Shown piece after piece: positions 8,193-45,181 of a stretch of 48,960 nt of DNA. Origin of the DNA: a virus. The stretch is taken from positions 1 to 48,960 of the IMG/VR virus record IMGVR_UViG_3300017948_000002, one strand, 5' to 3'. The notes beneath the pieces were generated by a model. That model was given only the letters and a program-made list of their open reading frames with translations. It made no database searches and was not told the origin of the DNA. Each line of letters opens with the position of its first letter. The stretch's first letter is position 1. The position numbers and the translations under genes were made by a program.

Positions 8193-9149
8193 TTATGGCC
8201 CCTGCGTTCCCCAGACCCCTTGCCACCTTGTCGCGCCTGCTGACATACGAAGTCTTGTCTTTTGCTTAATCGCATCCGTATCAAAATCATCATCGAAATC
8301 AGTTTCTGGCCGAATACGATGAAATACCTTCAACGAATGGTCAATCTTCTCGGCTACCAAGAACCAAGCAGATGGACTGTTAAGCCAAGGAACTTCAATG
8401 TTCTTGTAATCTTCAGGCAACAAAGAGTTAATCGTATTGTCCGCTACGTAAGGCTTACCAGTAGAACCCAGAATCTCACGTACCAAGAAACGAAGTTCAG
8501 GAGGTGTAATCAGATTAACCCACTTCAAACGAATCGGGAAGCCGGTATTATCAATCATACGAGCTGCATGATTGGTAGCAAGCTGAAGTCCCGCTACGCT
8601 AAAGTCTACATCAACCGCCGGACGATTAGGATACGTACCAGGAGCACTAATCACACCGGCTACACCAGGTGCAATCTGAGTAGCCTGTGCGCCCCAGAGC
8701 AGATTATGCTGATTGTAGAACAAAGGATTACCGTCAACAGTAGTTACGGCTGAGGTAAATCCTTGGTTAAGCACATTCCACGCAATCATTTCTTCTGTGA
8801 AAGCAGCAGCACGCGCCAGCAATCCTGGACCTTTCTTTACAAGCCCATACTTATCATCTTCCCACAGTTCTTTGGAAGTTCTAATTCCAAGACTGTAAGT
8901 AAGATGAATATACCGTTTCGACCCACCTTGCTTCATTTCTGTGTAAGATGTGCTAGCATCTTCCGGTTTCTCTAACAAATTCTGAACACCAGCCATTTCA
9001 AGTTCTTGCTCGTATTCAGAATCAGATGTTTCTTCGTTGAATACCATCGGATAATCCGACTTCTTCAACTGGGCATCAAGGCTATCGAAGTATATCTTCT
9101 TAAGCCCCGACTGCATCAACTGCGGAAATTTCGCTCTTACTTGAGGCAT
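8193..9149 (-). CDS. Major capsid protein, Mu gpT-like HK97 fold (318 aa)
   Basis: The N-terminal region (MPQVRAKFPQLMQSGLKKIY) and the acidic stretch around residues 38-65 are followed by the E-loop-type and A-domain segments. Features shared with Mu-type gpT heads are ELWEDDKYGL, the DGNPLFYNQHN segment near residue 140, LITPPELRFLVREIL, and SAWFLVAEK near the C-terminus, ending in a basic/aromatic TRWQGVWGTQGP. Length is close to that family's norm. It follows a decoration-type gene and a scaffold candidate, the usual capsid cassette order. Confidence 0.8.
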   Translation of the reverse strand: MPQVRAKFPQLMQSGLKKIYFDSLDAQLKKSDYPMVFNEETSDSEYEQELEMAGVQNLLEKPEDASTSYTEMKQGGSKRYIHLTYSLGIRTSKELWEDDKYGLVKKGPGLLARAAAFTEEMIAWNVLNQGFTSAVTTVDGNPLFYNQHNLLWGAQATQIAPGVAGVISAPGTYPNRPAVDVDFSVAGLQLATNHAARMIDNTGFPIRLKWVNLITPPELRFLVREILGSTGKPYVADNTINSLLPEDYKNIEVPWLNSPSAWFLVAEKIDHSLKVFHRIRPETDFDDDFDTDAIKQKTRLRMSAGATRWQGVWGTQGP

Positions 9150-21489: not shown

Positions 21490-21716
21490 ACTATGGCGAC
21501 GGCTCTGGCTCTGGCTCTGGCTCTGGCTCTGACTCTGGCTCTGGCTCTGGCTCTGGCTATGGCTCTGACTATGGCTTTGGCTCTGGCGATGGCTTTGGCT
21601 CTGGCTCTGGCTCTGGCTCTGGCTATGGCTCTGGCTCTGACTATGGCTTTGGCTCTGGCGATGGCTTTGGCTCTGGCTCTGGCTCTGGCTATGGCGACGG
21701 CTCTGGCTCTGGCTAA
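21477..21716 (+). CDS. Possible Gly-Ser repeat protein, frame 1 of the first microsatellite (79 aa)
   Basis: Starting MENIDYGDGSG, the frame reads Gly-Ser repeats with occasional Asp, Tyr and Phe and stops directly after the repeat. It mirrors the better-supported Gly-Ser ORF at 22350-22562, where a good GAGGAG ribosome site precedes the same type of start. Here the site is weaker (GAAAGAG). It overlaps the alternative Ala-Leu frame at 21493-21894, so at most one frame may be used, or both. Confidence 0.4.
   Translation: MENIDYGDGSGSGSGSGSDSGSGSGSGYGSDYGFGSGDGFGSGSGSGSGYGSGSDYGFGSGDGFGSGSGSGYGDGSGSG
21493..21714 (+). repeat. Hexanucleotide microsatellite (GGCTCT)n, first copy
   Basis: About 37 imperfect hexamers of GGCTCT with point variants (GACTCT, GGCTAT, GGCTTT, GGCGAT). 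A 72-base higher-order unit repeats: GACTATGGCTTTGG occurs at 21567 and 21639. Both ends carry the same 26 bases beginning CTATGGCGACGG (21491 and 21689), as expected of tandem expansion. Being hexameric, length changes keep every frame open. Confidence 0.9.
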
Positions 21717-21894
21717 TTGTATCTGTCATCATTCTCAATATATTCATTACAAATTAACAGGAGCCTGTGATGCTCAAGATTTAATAACAGGTAAAACTTG
21801 TGAATGTAGTGAGTACAGAGAAGATGACAGCAAGAAACAAAAAACAGAGCCATTACCATTACCACAACAATCAACAGATTTAAATGAGAACTAA
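21493..21894 (+). CDS. Cys/His zinc-type phage protein with Ala-Leu repeat N-terminus (133 aa)
   Basis: In this frame the microsatellite codes Ala-Leu repeats with occasional Met and Thr (about 70 residues, hydrophobic), then reads NCICHHSQYIHYKLTGACDA and TGKTCECSEYRED. The Cys/His pattern C-x-C-x(n)-H-x(n)-C-x(n)-CxC matches small zinc-type proteins found in many phages, so the C-terminal 60 residues are probably the true gene. A third possible start, ATG at 21691, would give the zinc protein with almost no repeat. The Ala-Leu part would be a membrane helix if translated. Start uncertain. Confidence 0.6.
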   Translation: MATALALALALALTLALALALAMALTMALALAMALALALALALAMALALTMALALAMALALALALAMATALALANCICHHSQYIHYKLTGACDAQDLITGKTCECSEYREDDSKKQKTEPLPLPQQSTDLNEN

Positions 21895-24831: not shown

Positions 24832-25419
24832 ATGTACGTGTTTTTTGAACACCATCGTGACCCGTCGGGTCAAATCACTCTAACTGAACTACGTCTATCT
24901 AGCTATCCAGATTGGCTACGGATTCAGTTTAAGAATGCAACCGAGAATACCGCATTTGAAGCTGCCAAAGTACTATTGAAACAAGCCCCGGTAGCGGTTA
25001 GATCATGCGACACCGATTTAAAAGTCTGGTCTTACCTTGGCTCAGAGTGGGGACAACGTACTTTAGACCAACTCAAAGCGGTAATCTCGAACATAACACC
25101 GGTCAAATTCGTAGAGGTCAAAGACCTCCGCATGTACGCGGCGGTTAACCGCTATGATCCGAGTCGTAAACAAGAGATTAAGGTAGAAGATTTCTTCTAT
25201 CAACACGCACCAACAGTCACAGTTGTGTCGAAGGAATCCATCACAATACAGCTTACGAAACTATTAGAAGTCAGTGAAGCTGAACTACACGCTGCTGATA
25301 AAGACACTCTCAAAAAGCTATATCGTCGTGCGTGTCTTAAACTGCACCCAGACCGTAACAACGGTAACGGTGCAGCTATGAGTGAACTCAATATGTTATG
25401 GGGGATTTATAATGCCTAA
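24832..25419 (+). CDS. J-domain (DnaJ-like) protein (195 aa)
   Basis: The C-terminal 55 residues form a J-domain: helix II KKLYRRACLKLHPDRNNGNG with the diagnostic HPD at residues 172-174 and a following MSELNMLWGIYN helix III. Residues 1-135 are a separate alpha/beta domain without a recognised family. A J-domain stimulates Hsp70 (DnaK) ATPase, so the phage protein would recruit host DnaK to a target; the N-terminal domain would choose it. No Gly/Phe region or zinc finger is present in this protein. It overlaps the next gene by eight bases. Confidence 0.75.
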   Translation: MYVFFEHHRDPSGQITLTELRLSSYPDWLRIQFKNATENTAFEAAKVLLKQAPVAVRSCDTDLKVWSYLGSEWGQRTLDQLKAVISNITPVKFVEVKDLRMYAAVNRYDPSRKQEIKVEDFFYQHAPTVTVVSKESITIQLTKLLEVSEAELHAADKDTLKKLYRRACLKLHPDRNNGNGAAMSELNMLWGIYNA

Positions 25420-34720: not shown

Positions 34721-35059
34721 ATGAATGACGGCTGGATAGGCGTAGACTTAGACGGTACCCTCGCCAAGCAACTAGATTCCCGAAGTGAAACCATGATAGG
34801 CGCGCCTATACCTAAAATGGTCGCTAGAGTTAAAAAATGGTTATCCGAAGGTCAAGAAGTTCGCATCTTCACCGCTCGTATAGCAAATCCACATGACTTT
34901 GACGGTGTGAGGCAGGCCATAGAATGGTGGTGCGCTCTTAACCTCGGAAAGAAACTAAAGATTACTTGCAGAAAAGACCACAAGATGATCGAGCTATGGG
35001 ACAATACAGCCATTCAAGTTATAACCAACACTGGTGAAAGAGCGGACGGTAAAGAATAA
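34721..35059 (+). CDS. HAD-superfamily phosphatase-like protein (112 aa)
   Basis: Motif I IGVDLDGTLA (Asp9, Asp11) with motif II-like VRIFTARIA (residues 48-56) and ELWDNTAIQV toward the end. This is the compact phage HAD type, often a 5'-nucleotidase or polynucleotide phosphatase. It shares one base with the next start (TAATG). It stands in the replication block beside polymerase genes, so nucleotide or DNA-end processing is the likely role. Confidence 0.78.
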   Translation: MNDGWIGVDLDGTLAKQLDSRSETMIGAPIPKMVARVKKWLSEGQEVRIFTARIANPHDFDGVRQAIEWWCALNLGKKLKITCRKDHKMIELWDNTAIQVITNTGERADGKE

Positions 35060-36144
35060 TGCCCTATCTACCAAATCGCGGCACTCCAACAGCGCCAATA
35101 TGGATTGTTTGTGAACGTCCATATCCGTCTGACATACCACGCGGCTATCTATGGAGCGGTGGTCTAGGAAACGTGTATGACAAGATGCTCAAAGAGGCTG
35201 GTATTAGTGACAAGGATGTATACGTATGCTGTCGCCGTCCTGACACAGACGCGCCGTCAGGAATTAAGATCATAGAAAATGACATCAACCATCATAAGCC
35301 ACCATTCATTCTACTTCTAGATGAAGTCGGAGGTATGTTTTTAGATGAGCTTAGAATCAAAGGAACCTTTGTCAGAGGACAGCTTCAAAAAAACGTCGGA
35401 AGCTTACTTAGATCAGATTCTTTTACTTATAAACATTATGCCATCCCAATGTATGGACCTCAATTCTGCGTTGCGGACTGGACTGAACGGAATATATCAA
35501 CATATATCGACTTGCAAAAAGTGCGAGAAGAACTCGCTTATTATCGCAGCAATAATGATCTACAATCAACTCCAATCAGGGAGTTGAAGTTTCAGGAAAT
35601 GCCGTTGGATGAGCTACTGAGCTATATAGACCGATTTAAGAATGCAACTCACATATCGAATGATATTGAGAATCCTGTTTATCACAGTGAAATGTACAAG
35701 CCGCATCCTGGTTATCCGTTGCTTCTCGGTCTAGCAGATTCACCATCATTCGGCATCAGCTTTAAGTTGTTCCGTGATTCTCAATCCGAAACGGTCAAGT
35801 TATGGCGAGAGTTGTATGAGTTATTTCAGAGCGTGATAACCATCGGGCAGAATTTCTTGAACTACGACGTGTTCTATGAGAACGCTCTAGGTTTTAACAT
35901 TCCGTTGGATAAGATTCAAGACACTCTTATTCGCCATCACATACTGTGGCCGGAGTTGCCTCATAAGTTACAGTTTTTGACTCGTCAATATACGAGAGAA
36001 CCCTTTTATAAAGATGAGGGGCAACATGGTAGCTTGAAATCTATGGACAGATACCGACGTTATAATGCTCTTGATGCTACCGTTACTTACGAAGTGTGGA
36101 TCGGGCAGGAAGAAGAGTTCAAGACAAGGAGTCATCTAGCGTGA
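35059..36144 (+). CDS. UDG-like domain fused to a DnaQ-type 3'-5' exonuclease (361 aa)
   Basis: Residues 12-145 fit the uracil-DNA glycosylase fold (IWIVCERPYP, then GGLGNVYDKMLKEAGI, DVYVCCRRPDT), but the classical catalytic signature is altered, so glycosylase activity is doubtful. Residues 197-345 form the proofreading exonuclease: Exo I SNDIENP (Asp202, Glu204), Exo II GQNFLNYDVF (Asp270), Exo III YNALDA (Asp339). The polymerase domain is a separate gene 170 bases downstream, so this replicase is split and carries a UDG-like module on the exonuclease half. Confidence 0.78.
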   Translation: MPYLPNRGTPTAPIWIVCERPYPSDIPRGYLWSGGLGNVYDKMLKEAGISDKDVYVCCRRPDTDAPSGIKIIENDINHHKPPFILLLDEVGGMFLDELRIKGTFVRGQLQKNVGSLLRSDSFTYKHYAIPMYGPQFCVADWTERNISTYIDLQKVREELAYYRSNNDLQSTPIRELKFQEMPLDELLSYIDRFKNATHISNDIENPVYHSEMYKPHPGYPLLLGLADSPSFGISFKLFRDSQSETVKLWRELYELFQSVITIGQNFLNYDVFYENALGFNIPLDKIQDTLIRHHILWPELPHKLQFLTRQYTREPFYKDEGQHGSLKSMDRYRRYNALDATVTYEVWIGQEEEFKTRSHLA

Positions 36145-36326
36145 AAATCCTCTGTGACACCAAAGAACCACATCAGTGCGGTGAGTTGATCTGGTTATCT
36201 AAGTTAACCAGTACTTATTGTATGCGTGAGCGTGGTCACCCGGACGAAGGTGTTAAAGGTTTTCCGGGTGGACATAATATCGTTAATGAAGTGCCAGTAG
36301 CGAAGGTTAAAGATGAGAGTAAGTAG
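36141..36326 (+). CDS. Small cysteine-containing protein between the exonuclease and polymerase genes (61 aa)
   Basis: GTG start overlaps the previous stop by four bases, with AAGGAG eight bases upstream. Contains ILCDTKEPHQC, TYCMRERGHPD and a C-terminal GGHNIVNEV. Three Cys and two His could bind a metal. It overlaps the polymerase start by 14 bases. Its conserved position suggests a replisome accessory. Confidence 0.65.
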   Translation: MKILCDTKEPHQCGELIWLSKLTSTYCMRERGHPDEGVKGFPGGHNIVNEVPVAKVKDESK

Positions 36327-37830
36327 CACCTACGAGCATAATTTACAAGCAGTCTACTGTCACATAGGCAGTCGTGGTATACGTGTAGACACAAAGCGTC
36401 TAAGCCACGCTAAGCAAGTTGTGAAGGCTGAGATTCATCGCTGGTTAGCCGTAGCCTCTAATCAATGGGGCTGCAAAGTGTTTATCGGTGCGGCTAACAA
36501 TCCAGAAAAAGATGCCATTGACGCACTCGGAGCGGTCAATCTAAATGCTACACAGGGTAAATACGCCTTGCTCTCCAAGCTTCGAGACTTAGGTTATGAA
36601 CTACCAAAGATAACCAAAAAGGACCAAGATGGAAACTACGAATCAGAAGAATCAACCGCCGAACTCGCACTCCAAAAGATACTATCGAAAAACCAATTTA
36701 ACTATCCAGGAGGCGATCCAGCTATTAAAGCTGTGCTCCGAATCCGAGAGCTTGGTAAACTCAGTTCAAGTTACCTCAACGCTCTCTTATTCGCCCGCGG
36801 CGATGAGCATTACTTCTTGTCTAACTATAACGTTGCCGGCACTTTATCTGGACGTAGAAGCTCACGCAAACATACATTCCGTTTTGGAAACAATGCACAG
36901 AATTTTCCCAAACATAGTGATACATCCGAGTTGTACAGAAGATGTCTTGTATCTAGACCCGGGCACATCTTCTTAATGGTAGATCAAATCAGCGCAGAGG
37001 ATTGGCCTGTATCAGCACTTGCTGAAAACTATAAATCCTTAGAGCAACTTAAGAATACAAATGATATATATGGACGCCATACCAGATTAGCTTCTGACTT
37101 ATTTAATATACCTTTAGCGTCTCGGCCACCCGATGAGGGCCTAGATAACTGGAAAGACTCCATTGAAAGGTATATTGCAAAACAAACTCGTCATGCGTCT
37201 AACTATGATATGTTAGCGCCACGATTGTCAGAACATTTTGCTAAGTTTGGATTTTCATATTCAGAGTCTAAGTGTAAATTACTACTGGATAAAATGGGTC
37301 AGATTGATCCGAATATCAAAACCATATTTCATAAGTATGTACGCACAAAGATCAGTAATGACCGTGTTCTAATCTCACCAGAACCGTTTCTACGTGAACG
37401 TCAGTTTCTAGGAGCACGCCCAAATGATGCAAACAACAGCCTTTTCAAAGAAGCTTATTCTTGGATACCACAAGGATGTATCGGAGATAACACAGGATTT
37501 GCTATCTTTGAACTTGAAAGTAGCTACCCTGTCAACGAGAGATACGTTGTCCAAGAAGGACACGATAGCATTGTTCAAGACATTCCAGATGATGCAGACA
37601 CAATCTACAAAACTCTGCTACGCACTAATAATGCTTTCGATAGAACTATCAGGTTTCATAACGGTATTGAAATCAAAATCCCGATTGAAACCGAGATCGG
37701 CTACGACTTCGCAACAACTGTCAGAATCAGAGAGTTTACGCGGAAAGCGATACAGAATGCGCGTGAATCGCTCCAGAGCAGAATTGCTGAAATACGGAAA
37801 AGTGATAACAGAGTAACAGTAACGGTGTAA
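36313..37830 (+). CDS. DNA polymerase, family A (polymerase domain only, 505 aa)
   Basis: Polymerase motifs: motif A FLMVDQISAEDWPV (Asp224, Glu229), motif B RYIAKQTRHASNYDM (Arg286, Lys290, Tyr298) and motif C VVQEGHDSIVQDI (His417, Asp418). The 3'-5' exonuclease domain is in the separate protein at 35059-36144. Motif A has Trp-Pro where most homologues have Arg, an unusual substitution beside the catalytic site. It is the phage replicative polymerase. Confidence 0.88.
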   Translation: MRVSSTYEHNLQAVYCHIGSRGIRVDTKRLSHAKQVVKAEIHRWLAVASNQWGCKVFIGAANNPEKDAIDALGAVNLNATQGKYALLSKLRDLGYELPKITKKDQDGNYESEESTAELALQKILSKNQFNYPGGDPAIKAVLRIRELGKLSSSYLNALLFARGDEHYFLSNYNVAGTLSGRRSSRKHTFRFGNNAQNFPKHSDTSELYRRCLVSRPGHIFLMVDQISAEDWPVSALAENYKSLEQLKNTNDIYGRHTRLASDLFNIPLASRPPDEGLDNWKDSIERYIAKQTRHASNYDMLAPRLSEHFAKFGFSYSESKCKLLLDKMGQIDPNIKTIFHKYVRTKISNDRVLISPEPFLRERQFLGARPNDANNSLFKEAYSWIPQGCIGDNTGFAIFELESSYPVNERYVVQEGHDSIVQDIPDDADTIYKTLLRTNNAFDRTIRFHNGIEIKIPIETEIGYDFATTVRIREFTRKAIQNARESLQSRIAEIRKSDNRVTVTV

Positions 37831-39722: not shown

Positions 39723-40292
39723 ATGGCTGAGCAGATACCGGAACTAAAAGGCGCTAGGCATCTTCGCAGATACAACGTGAGCACTTATGCTGCGAAGCCG
39801 ACGACAGATGAACTTCCCAAGAAATACAGCAAAGTCATGGTGACGTGGTTAGACGCTCAGGAAGCTGTCTTAGAGGCACAAGCTGCGCAACGGGATGCAG
39901 AGGCCCAGGTAGCGGCGCTGACCGCAGCCGCCAAAGATCGTGAGGAATATTGGGAAGGATATAAAGCAGAGTCACTTCTTACGTTTAAACAGCTTAGCGA
40001 TGATTTCGACAGATTGACCGCGGAGCTTGAATCGCAACTGGCCGGCAAGTGGATCAGCGTGGATGTTGAGATGCCAAAAGAGGAGGATAGGGAGTTTTGG
40101 TGCTGGTTAGGGCCGAACGACGGAATCCTCGCCAGCGATGGGACGCTCATAAAAGCTGCTTTTGCGAATTACATGAAGATCGTCAAGACGTATCGATCCG
40201 TGGATGGAAGTATCAAATTTAGCTGCGGCTGTCTAGAAAAAGTGACTCATTACCAACCGTTACCCTCACCACCCACCAAGGAGAAACTATGA
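39723..40292 (+). CDS. Coiled-coil protein with C-terminal DUF551-type domain (189 aa)
   Basis: Residues 40-100 form a coiled coil (AQAAQRDAEAQVAALTAAAK). The C-terminal part, GKWISVDVEMPKEEDREFWC and VTHYQPLPSPP, is characteristic of DUF551, common as a short domain in phages. It overlaps the co-chaperonin start by ATGA. Unknown function. Confidence 0.7.
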   Translation: MAEQIPELKGARHLRRYNVSTYAAKPTTDELPKKYSKVMVTWLDAQEAVLEAQAAQRDAEAQVAALTAAAKDREEYWEGYKAESLLTFKQLSDDFDRLTAELESQLAGKWISVDVEMPKEEDREFWCWLGPNDGILASDGTLIKAAFANYMKIVKTYRSVDGSIKFSCGCLEKVTHYQPLPSPPTKEKL

Positions 40293-41035
40293 CCGAAAAG
40301 ATTATCAGTATTTCACCTGATGTAAAACCAAAGAATATCATGTCAGACAACGATAGCACTGCGGCACAAATTGAAGCTCGTGCGGTGCTTGATCGAATGG
40401 ATAAGGAGAAGGAAGATTTACGTACTCAAGAGTTGATACTTGATGGCTCAAATAAGATCAAGTTTATTGGCTATCCGTATATATTTGAAGCCCTAGGCGA
40501 GAAAATCATTGTATCCATTGACGTATTTAAGAGTGGCTATGAGTGTAAAGTATGTAAAGGATTACGAAAAATTAAAGCTGTTTGTGAATGTGAAATTAAT
40601 GGTAGACCAGGTTTTAAATATCCATTAGATTCTATATTAGAAATACGTAAGACTCTAGGAGATCAAATAGCAGATACACGTTCACTAATGCCTTGTCTTA
40701 AATGTAACGGTGACTACGTAGCCGCTCGTCACGAAGAAACTTGTACCGCTTGTAAAGGACGTGGTGCTGTTATCATTCTTCCGAAAGAATCAGAAGCACT
40801 CCCTACCACTGGCACAGTTGTCTCAATTGGTAAACTAGCTCAACGTTTAATTAAGGATGATGAATGGGATTATAAACACGGCGATAAGGTTCTTTTTAGC
40901 CAATTCGCTGGCCAATTCATTCCGTGTAAGGCTGGCGTGTTATTAAAGATTCTAGACTATAATCAAGTAATTACTAAAATCGAAGGTGCTGATGATTTAA
41001 ATTCATTTGATTTTATATTAAGTGAAAAAGATTAA
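40289..41035 (+). CDS. GroES-like co-chaperonin with DnaJ-type zinc module in the mobile-loop position (248 aa)
   Basis: GroES-type strand IFEALGEKIIVSIDVF (residues 65-80) is followed not by a mobile loop but by about 80 residues with three CxxCxG motifs (Cys86/89, Cys136/139, Cys152/155) plus Cys99 and Cys101, like the DnaJ cysteine-rich zinc domain. The GroES pattern then resumes: VIILPKESEALPTTGTVVSI (161-180), HGDKVLFSQFAGQFI (197-211) and LLKILDYNQVITKI. The mobile loop is what contacts GroEL, so replacing it by a zinc module would alter the partner. Residues 1-60 are an extra helical region. It may help fold the capsid or another phage protein. Confidence 0.72.
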   Translation: MTEKIISISPDVKPKNIMSDNDSTAAQIEARAVLDRMDKEKEDLRTQELILDGSNKIKFIGYPYIFEALGEKIIVSIDVFKSGYECKVCKGLRKIKAVCECEINGRPGFKYPLDSILEIRKTLGDQIADTRSLMPCLKCNGDYVAARHEETCTACKGRGAVIILPKESEALPTTGTVVSIGKLAQRLIKDDEWDYKHGDKVLFSQFAGQFIPCKAGVLLKILDYNQVITKIEGADDLNSFDFILSEKD

Positions 41036-43873: not shown

Positions 43874-45181
43874 CTAGTGATTTAGCCAACCATTTTCAAT
43901 GATAAATTGATAACGTTTCAAAGTTGATTTATCAATATCAGTTCGATACTGAATATCAGGAATTTGTATTTTTTCAATGCGTCTTTCTAATTTTTCAAAA
44001 GTCTCTCTATAAGACTCCCCACAAACCATAGGAGAAGCTATTAAACCATAATTACCACTGGTGACAAGTTTATTTTTTGACAGCATAACATCATATAAAT
44101 AAGTTTCACATAAGTCTTCTATATCTTCTGACTCGATTCCACCAATCTCGATTCCTTTACTGTTTGGTAATCTTATATTAGTAGGATACGGAGGTATTGA
44201 AATAGTAGTTGATACACCAAAACTATGATTCCATTTAATATGTGGAACTTTACCAGTAAGTATACTATGAAGCATCTCACCAAAACCACTACCATACATG
44301 GTAGCTATAATAGGATCTGAAAAATAACCAAATCTAGGCGTCCATTCAAGTCCGTACATTTTATCTTCTGTTAAGATGGTATTTAAATCTATAATGCCTT
44401 TAAAACCAATCTGTTGCAGTGCTGTTTTAGCTTTAGCAAGTCCTTCTCTGAAAATTCTCATCTCATGATTCATTATATAAATGAGATTACCAGAGCAACC
44501 TGTATTTGGCCCTTTATTGTCGTTCATAAATTTTTTTTCTTCTAATGTTCCAGTGAGAAGATAAAAATCAAAGCCATTAAAATAGCCAGCTGTACCTACT
44601 TCGGTTCCTTTAATAAATTCTTGTAGAATGAAAGGTGCTCTATGGGATCTATCCCATAGGACATCTATGTATCCTAATAGATCTTCGGCACTTTTGGAGA
44701 CATATGTAATAGCTTTATCATCAGAAGCAGTTCCACCAGTGAATGGTTTATACACATAACGCTTGTCTTCTTTTTTAATAAAACTTTTAGCCTCAGTGGC
44801 ATTATTAAATCTCGTGTATGGAGGAACATTTATACCACTTTCTTCCATAAACTTTAAACCAAACTCACGGTCATTTTCTAGCTTGTTTTCTATCTCGCCA
44901 TCACCAAAAGTAGGAGTGTCTAATTTAGAAGCCTCTGCCCATTTAGTACTTTCAGTAAAATCAAAAAGAGACATATCGTATTTTTTATATGAGGGAAAAC
45001 CATAACCTTGTACGTGTCTTCTTTGATCTATTTGAACTATCTTTGGTTTAGGTATAAGACCGCCTAGCACATCCTCATACTTCTGGTCTGAAAGATAGTA
45101 ATCTACCTCGTGACCTTCAGCCATGAGTCGAAGTACAAACCATGCTCCAATACCAGAAGTAGAGGATAATGCTATCTTCAT
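43874..45181 (-). CDS. PurD-like ATP-grasp enzyme (435 aa)
   Basis: ATP-grasp features: YVYKPFTGGTASDDK (about residues 142-156), ILQEFIKGTEVGTAG (185-199), NDNKGPNTGCSGNLIY (220-235, close to the PurD GPNTGGMG motif) and YGLEWTPRFGY (276-286, like PurD EfNaRfGDPE). The C-terminal domain contains YGLIASPMVCGESY. PurD joins glycine to phosphoribosylamine in purine synthesis; here changed motif positions (GCSGN, WTPR) suggest another amine/carboxylate ligation. It stands between a giant virion protein and the spike in the late operon, far from nucleotide genes. AT-rich codon use suggests acquisition. Confidence 0.72.
   Translation of the reverse strand: MKIALSSTSGIGAWFVLRLMAEGHEVDYYLSDQKYEDVLGGLIPKPKIVQIDQRRHVQGYGFPSYKKYDMSLFDFTESTKWAEASKLDTPTFGDGEIENKLENDREFGLKFMEESGINVPPYTRFNNATEAKSFIKKEDKRYVYKPFTGGTASDDKAITYVSKSAEDLLGYIDVLWDRSHRAPFILQEFIKGTEVGTAGYFNGFDFYLLTGTLEEKKFMNDNKGPNTGCSGNLIYIMNHEMRIFREGLAKAKTALQQIGFKGIIDLNTILTEDKMYGLEWTPRFGYFSDPIIATMYGSGFGEMLHSILTGKVPHIKWNHSFGVSTTISIPPYPTNIRLPNSKGIEIGGIESEDIEDLCETYLYDVMLSKNKLVTSGNYGLIASPMVCGESYRETFEKLERRIEKIQIPDIQYRTDIDKSTLKRYQFIIENGWLNH

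Follow-up and report, generated by a model that had tools for sequence, protein, structure and literature searches.

GroES is among the most conserved parts of the chaperone machinery, and its mobile loop is the docking device. An open reading frame in an uncultivated phage raises the question whether this very loop can carry a folded zinc module of the DnaJ type, and what such a lid would do. The source record is a phage genome of 48,960 bases; this whole stretch of DNA was analyzed and is called the window here. The coordinates of the reading frame (40289-41035, 248 amino acids) were confirmed. It begins with ATG, a GGAG sequence resembling a ribosome-binding site lies close upstream, and it overlaps the previous gene by 4 bases. 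The gene follows replication genes, namely a polymerase in two open reading frames and then a DUF3987 primase/helicase-like gene. The polymerase is a DNA polymerase I divided into an N-terminal part (35059-36144) and a polymerase part (36313-37830), and both match phrog_17 in consecutive segments. Two further reading frames of the window were recorded: positions 43874-45181 encode an ATP-grasp protein like phosphoribosylamine-glycine ligase (GARS_A, E=1.3e-11), and the frame at positions 21493-21894, in which Ala-Leu/Met-Ala repeats predominate (MATALALALALALTLALA...), is probably either a membrane peptide or a repeat array. The major capsid protein of the phage is encoded at 8193-9149. The features discussed below are collected in Table 1.

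Table 1. Positions in the window of the lid gene, its parts and the J-domain gene.
Feature	Position	Strand	Evidence
J-domain protein, 195 aa; C-terminal truncated J-domain, HPD, no zinc domain	24832..25419	+	Pfam DnaJ E=2e-6
Zinc-module co-chaperonin gene, 248 aa	40289..41035	+	ORF; Pfam Cpn10 E=1.5e-7; ~80 distinct family members
N-terminal extension, residues 1-64; predicted helix 25-45 and short strand	40289..40480	+	Alignment A1; AlphaFold
GroES barrel, N-terminal half, residues 65-82	40481..40534	+	Cpn10 match beginning at profile position 3 after excision
DnaJ-type zinc module at mobile-loop tip, residues 83-159 (77 residues)	40535..40765	+	Cysteine counts; AlphaFold; Foldseek on L094
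Zinc motif I (C86, C89), invariant	40544..40555	+	A1, A2
Motif II (C99, C101), inner site; missing together with motif III in several relatives	40583..40591	+	
Motif III (C136, C139), inner site	40694..40705	+	
Zinc motif IV (C152, C155 in CxxCxGxG), invariant	40742..40753	+	A1, A2
GroES barrel, C-terminal half, residues 160-231	40766..40981	+	Pfam Cpn10 161-230; Foldseek Cpn10 and T4 gp31
Putative GroEL-docking tripeptide I162-I163-L164	40772..40780	+	Aligned with GroES I25-V26-L27, gap-free register to P..TG motif

A GroES barrel split at the mobile-loop position

The Pfam Cpn10 profile matched residues 161-230 with 31.8 bits, above the curated cut-off of 21.1, and residues 65-82 (IFEALGEKIIVSIDVFKS), the N-terminal half of the barrel, correspond to IRPLHDRVIVKRKEVET of GroES. 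Residues 83-158 were then deleted in silico and the Cpn10 profile was rerun. The shortened protein gave an unbroken match to profile positions 3-92 with E=2.2e-9 and 37.6 bits; after the same excision, the match began at profile position 2-4 in three relatives, and removal of the module lowered the E value of the far relative L088 from 4.9e-10 to 5.5e-13. All 15 members of alignment A1 matched Cpn10. The continuity of the match after excision shows that the barrel is truly interrupted and not just preceded by a zinc unit. The NCBIfam GroES equivalogs did not reach their cut-off (best 27.9 bits vs 128), which indicates a divergent relative rather than an ordinary bacterial GroES. Residues 1-64 are variable across the family and lie beyond the GroES homology in A1.

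An AlphaFold model of the window protein, built from 15 sequences, had a mean pLDDT of 71; the zinc module reached mostly 81-94, and the hinges at residues 81-84 and 162-168 stayed below 50. Confidence was also low at residues 1-23 and 40-46 of the N-terminal extension. Foldseek placed Cpn10/GroES structures on top (probability 1.00) and T4 gp31 at rank 12. DnaJ zinc domains were not among the matches listed for this model, probably because of its longer insert. The model of relative L094 (59 sequences, pLDDT 87) matched GroES-type chains at ranks 1-20 and then the Rubisco assembly chaperone BSD2 (6ekc and 6ekb, probability 1.00); further zinc domains were those of DnaJA3 (2ctt, 0.96) and DnaJA2 (7zhs, 0.91). 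The gp31 structures matched by Foldseek were 1g31 and 2cgt. An earlier note on this DNA had proposed GroES-like strands on both sides of an insert, and the excised Cpn10 match, AlphaFold and Foldseek agree with this proposal: together they support a GroES barrel that carries a DnaJ-type zinc module at the loop position. Neither the loss of the GroES barrel nor a zinc domain set apart as an N-terminal unit was seen in the AlphaFold or profile results. The window protein is a co-chaperonin of the GroES/Cpn10 family encoded by the phage, and a zinc module of the DnaJ type splits its barrel at the mobile loop.

The register within the loop was obtained by gap-free backward alignment from the conserved TG, in which G175 corresponds to G38 of E. 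coli GroES. Residues I162-I163-L164 fall on I25-V26-L27, the GroEL-docking tripeptide of E. coli GroES, and directly follow the zinc module. This tripeptide is hydrophobic at all three positions in 64 of 79 members; the other 15 have at least one non-hydrophobic position. The low pLDDT of residues 162-168 is what a mobile segment would give. Because the tripeptide aligns right after the last zinc motif, the alignment puts the module at the mobile-loop tip, with the docking half left in place for putative GroEL docking. The insertion thus lies at the mobile-loop position, as the earlier note had stated, but it does not stand in place of the loop, the tripeptide being kept in most members.

A conserved family with an optional inner cysteine site

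With the window protein alone as query, no close relatives were found in viral contigs. The neighbouring polymerase gene retrieved 38 related loci, most of which carried a homologue at the same place. Alignment A1, made of 15 members, led to 104 matching contigs and a wider alignment to 92; after removal of near-copies, 79 distinct proteins were parsed, and a few more were inspected manually. The relatives occur in about 100 viral contigs and belong to uncultivated viruses of bacteria. One contig, IMGVR_UViG_3300029915_001170 (L023), has 99,640 bases, about twice the usual 46-50 kb of the group, and is possibly a concatemer or an assembly dimer. Cultured phages yielded only ordinary GroES (in Acinetobacter phages beside groEL, and in Bacteroides phages) and no match with a second query; terminase and primase matches to cultured phages were remote. 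Bacterial genomes, searched with patterns that would miss the L088-type clade, gave one match (L118, JARLJL010000016.1). Its contig, 47.7 kb long and binned with a Sulfuriferula MAG, is probably a phage contig of this group, and the MAG encodes an ordinary GroES and GroEL separately. It is the sole hint at a host, and a weak one.

A combination of GroES with a DnaJ-type zinc module was not described in the literature searched, nor in the PHROGs, NCBIfam or Pfam families. A Foldseek comparison with viral models gave GroES proteins that were ordinary or slightly extended, although viral GroES entries of 140-155 amino acids could hide similar inserts.

The insert of the window protein contains three CxxCxG motifs (C86-C89, C136-C139 and C152-C155), in which the earlier note had recognized the hallmark of the DnaJ cysteine-rich domain; the motifs are indeed present and conserved, and the predicted fold is BSD2/DnaJ-like. 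All four cysteine pairs of the DnaJ domain are found, with pair II being C-x-C (C99, C101) instead of CxxC in the window protein; in other clades, all four pairs are regular CxxC and are accompanied by glycines as in DnaJ. Scores of DnaJ profiles stayed below their cut-offs: Pfam DnaJ_CXXCXGXG matched residues 136-162 of the window protein with E=0.0017 and 19 bits, and full-length PF00684 reached 26.4 bits (E=8.4e-6, cut-off 32.7) with L094, the best among the scores shown, so that no member with a score shown attained the gathering score. Profile A2 matched E. coli DnaJ (1exk) precisely at the insert, at positions 39-88, though only with E=0.07.

The number of cysteines in the insert was 8 in 63 of the 79 parsed members, 9 in 8 and 4 in 8; counts of 5, 6 or 7 did not occur. 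Chance cysteines were rejected on the basis of these counts, and the architecture, kept in about 80 distinct phage proteins, is not due to chance. In every member that extends into the region, motif I reads GYECxxC or GFECxxC, and a terminal CxxC is present as well. Cysteine pairs I and IV do not vary in A1 and A2, and neither do the outer cysteines and glycines of the insert in A2; pairs II and III are gained or lost jointly. On a tree of the GroES core, the four-cysteine state required six changes, at least five of them forced, with the outer pair unchanged throughout; hence, the inner site was repeatedly lost or gained. Two sister sequences on this tree, L016 and L020, have 4 and 9 cysteines, respectively. 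In the DnaJ domain, pairs I+IV and II+III bind one zinc each. In our sequences, II and III occur or are missing as a unit, which suggests the same nested layout with two zinc ions in the phage module. The DnaJ cysteine-rich domain is described as two cysteine tetrads in PMC4428491.

Codon comparison of five close relatives revealed purifying selection in every region and identified the zinc module as the fastest-evolving one, with dN/dS of about 0-0.03 for the N-terminal half of the barrel, 0.04-0.20 for the C-terminal half and 0.12-0.40 for the module. Faster evolution of the module would fit a surface facing clients or partners; its role may also be less constrained or differ between phages.

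Probable partner and role of the phage lid

A phage GroEL was not matched in any of 30 phage records, while all control genomes gave matches; many contigs may be incomplete, so that this absence is not proof. The likely partner is therefore host GroEL, as for T4 gp31. The latter has no roof loops and a longer mobile loop, and it is required for folding of the capsid protein gp23 (PMC6318259). In the phage family, the roof segment from SxG to GD mostly comprises 7-14 residues, with 8 and 11 as the commonest lengths, and is longer in a few members; it has 16 residues in the window protein vs 17 in the Sulfuriferula host GroES.

The best explanation, which we consider fairly probable, is a gp31-like ring lid on host GroEL with a zinc module ahead of the docking tripeptide that grips clients and/or tunes the lid. 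The protein most likely forms a ring, presumably a heptamer, on host GroEL and would replace or compete with host GroES during folding of phage proteins, as gp31 does. In the tip of the mobile loop, just ahead of the tripeptide, the module would provide one obligatory zinc site (I+IV) and an optional one (II+III). Docking would still occur via the tripeptide, and seven zinc modules would then line the seam between lid and GroEL, where they may bind phage clients in a non-native state, adjust the affinity of the lid and the shape of the cage, or do both. According to PMC4428491, citing Linke et al. 2003, substrate binding by DnaJ requires its zinc centre I, and interaction with DnaK requires centre II. 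Since only the equivalent of centre I is obligatory here, the analogy favours client binding over a DnaK contact. An extended form, in which a single lid couples capture of unfolded phage proteins by the zinc modules, perhaps via host DnaK and the phage J-domain protein, with closure of the GroEL cage, appears rather unlikely to us.

Alternatively, the module may be a rigid spacer that alters docking strength or cage volume like the gp31 loop and never touches a client. Its position directly before the tripeptide agrees with this idea, as do the wide variation among members in the stretch that starts with motif I and closes with the TG...SxG motif (54-103 residues) and the longer loop of gp31, which enlarges the folding cage (PMC6318259). 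However, a spacer needs neither the CxxCxGxG consensus nor a fold like that of DnaJ and BSD2, and the outer cysteines and glycines are invariant; we thus regard a pure spacer as possible but doubtful.

The earlier note had also pointed to a J-domain protein without zinc finger in the same genome and suggested that both proteins jointly rebuild DnaJ. This J-domain protein is encoded in the window (Table 1), contains HPD and is free of CxxC. The lid protein itself gave no J-domain match in Pfam and hence is no type I J-protein. J-domain matches were present in 24 of 30 phage records of a first set; in the relatives read (L236-L255), HPD is located near the C-terminus, the chain ends about 25-36 residues past HPD, and CxxC is missing in all except two. 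A second set of 11 lid carriers, three repeated from the first and most belonging to the other major clade, gave a J-domain match in only one. The J-domain gene was also not found in three distant phages, themselves without the lid. Hence, the lid gene and the J-domain gene co-occur within a single lineage, yet the lid is independent of the J-protein, which is a possible, not an obligatory, partner. The single match of the second set (L232, G043:C1:16800-16940) is weak and is read through two TAG codons in frame; TAG may be recoded in this 50-kb phage, or the gene may be broken.

These counts weaken the proposed joint DnaJ, and the idea that a split DnaJ holds generally was rejected. Recruitment of host DnaK by the lid zinc module together with the phage J-protein, with clients handed from Hsp70 to GroEL, would be consistent with the frequent HPD-bearing protein lacking a zinc domain in the first set and with the DnaK-binding phage J-protein already known (PMC3486835). 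Co-occurrence within a single phage lineage is weak evidence, though, and the site reported for DnaK contact in PMC4428491, centre II, is the dispensable one here. Together with the weak, TAG-containing match as the only one among the second carriers, this makes such a relay improbable.

A PDB profile search gave Cpn20/Cpn23 subunits of the Chlamydomonas ClpP complex 7ekq as best matches, that is, Cpn10-type subunits in a solved ClpP complex. The lid might accordingly cap another ring such as ClpP and divert host proteolysis instead of serving folding, but the remaining close matches were all GroES/Cpn10, mostly from GroEL-type complexes, and the tripeptide resembles GroEL-binding loops, so we consider this very improbable. 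Descent from the GroES-like barrel of the MDR superfamily (alcohol dehydrogenases), which likewise carries a structural zinc lobe, was rejected as scarcely credible: ADH_N matched some relatives weakly (E=0.001-0.02), below cut-off and over a short stretch, whereas Cpn10 scored above cut-off across the whole barrel, Foldseek put GroES above MDR enzymes, and the lid protein lacks the dehydrogenase domain.

With its DnaJ-type module in a GroES protein, the family brings the worlds of Hsp40 and Hsp60 together in a single chain. A folded zinc module in the loop, found in dozens of phages under purifying selection, means that the lid can be re-engineered far past gp31, and the family is a natural, testable tool on whether lids can select clients.

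Comparison with known systems

The lid protein is classed as a GroES variant and not as a DnaJ protein. With GroES/Cpn10 (PF00166) it shares the barrel sequence, the predicted fold, the mobile-loop position, the hydrophobic tripeptide and the GD..LF..AG strand; it differs in that the tip of its mobile loop carries a zinc module of roughly 30-80 residues, most members have a short roof segment, both termini bear additional segments and groEL is not adjacent. T4 gp31 is likewise a phage-encoded GroES fold with an altered mobile loop and a missing roof loop (PMC6318259), and it works with host GroEL, as the lid probably would. Unlike the lid, gp31 has a flexible loop of 22 residues and no zinc module, and the sequence relationship is not direct as far as shown. 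Helicobacter pylori GroES (HspA) also combines GroES with an added metal-binding part, which is histidine-rich and binds nickel; this extension is C-terminal (PMC5116745) and differs from a structured zinc module in the mobile loop.

The DnaJ cysteine-rich domain (PF00684) shares with the module four pairs, in a presumably nested I+IV/II+III arrangement, the CxxCxGxG consensus and the predicted fold. The phage module, however, scores below the Pfam cut-off, its inner site is optional, and it is part of a co-chaperonin instead of lying between the J-domain and the peptide-binding domain of a J-protein. BSD2, the zinc chaperone matched in 6ekb and 6ekc, resembles the lid in having a DnaJ-type zinc domain without a J-domain, but it is a stand-alone plastid protein outside any chaperonin lid.
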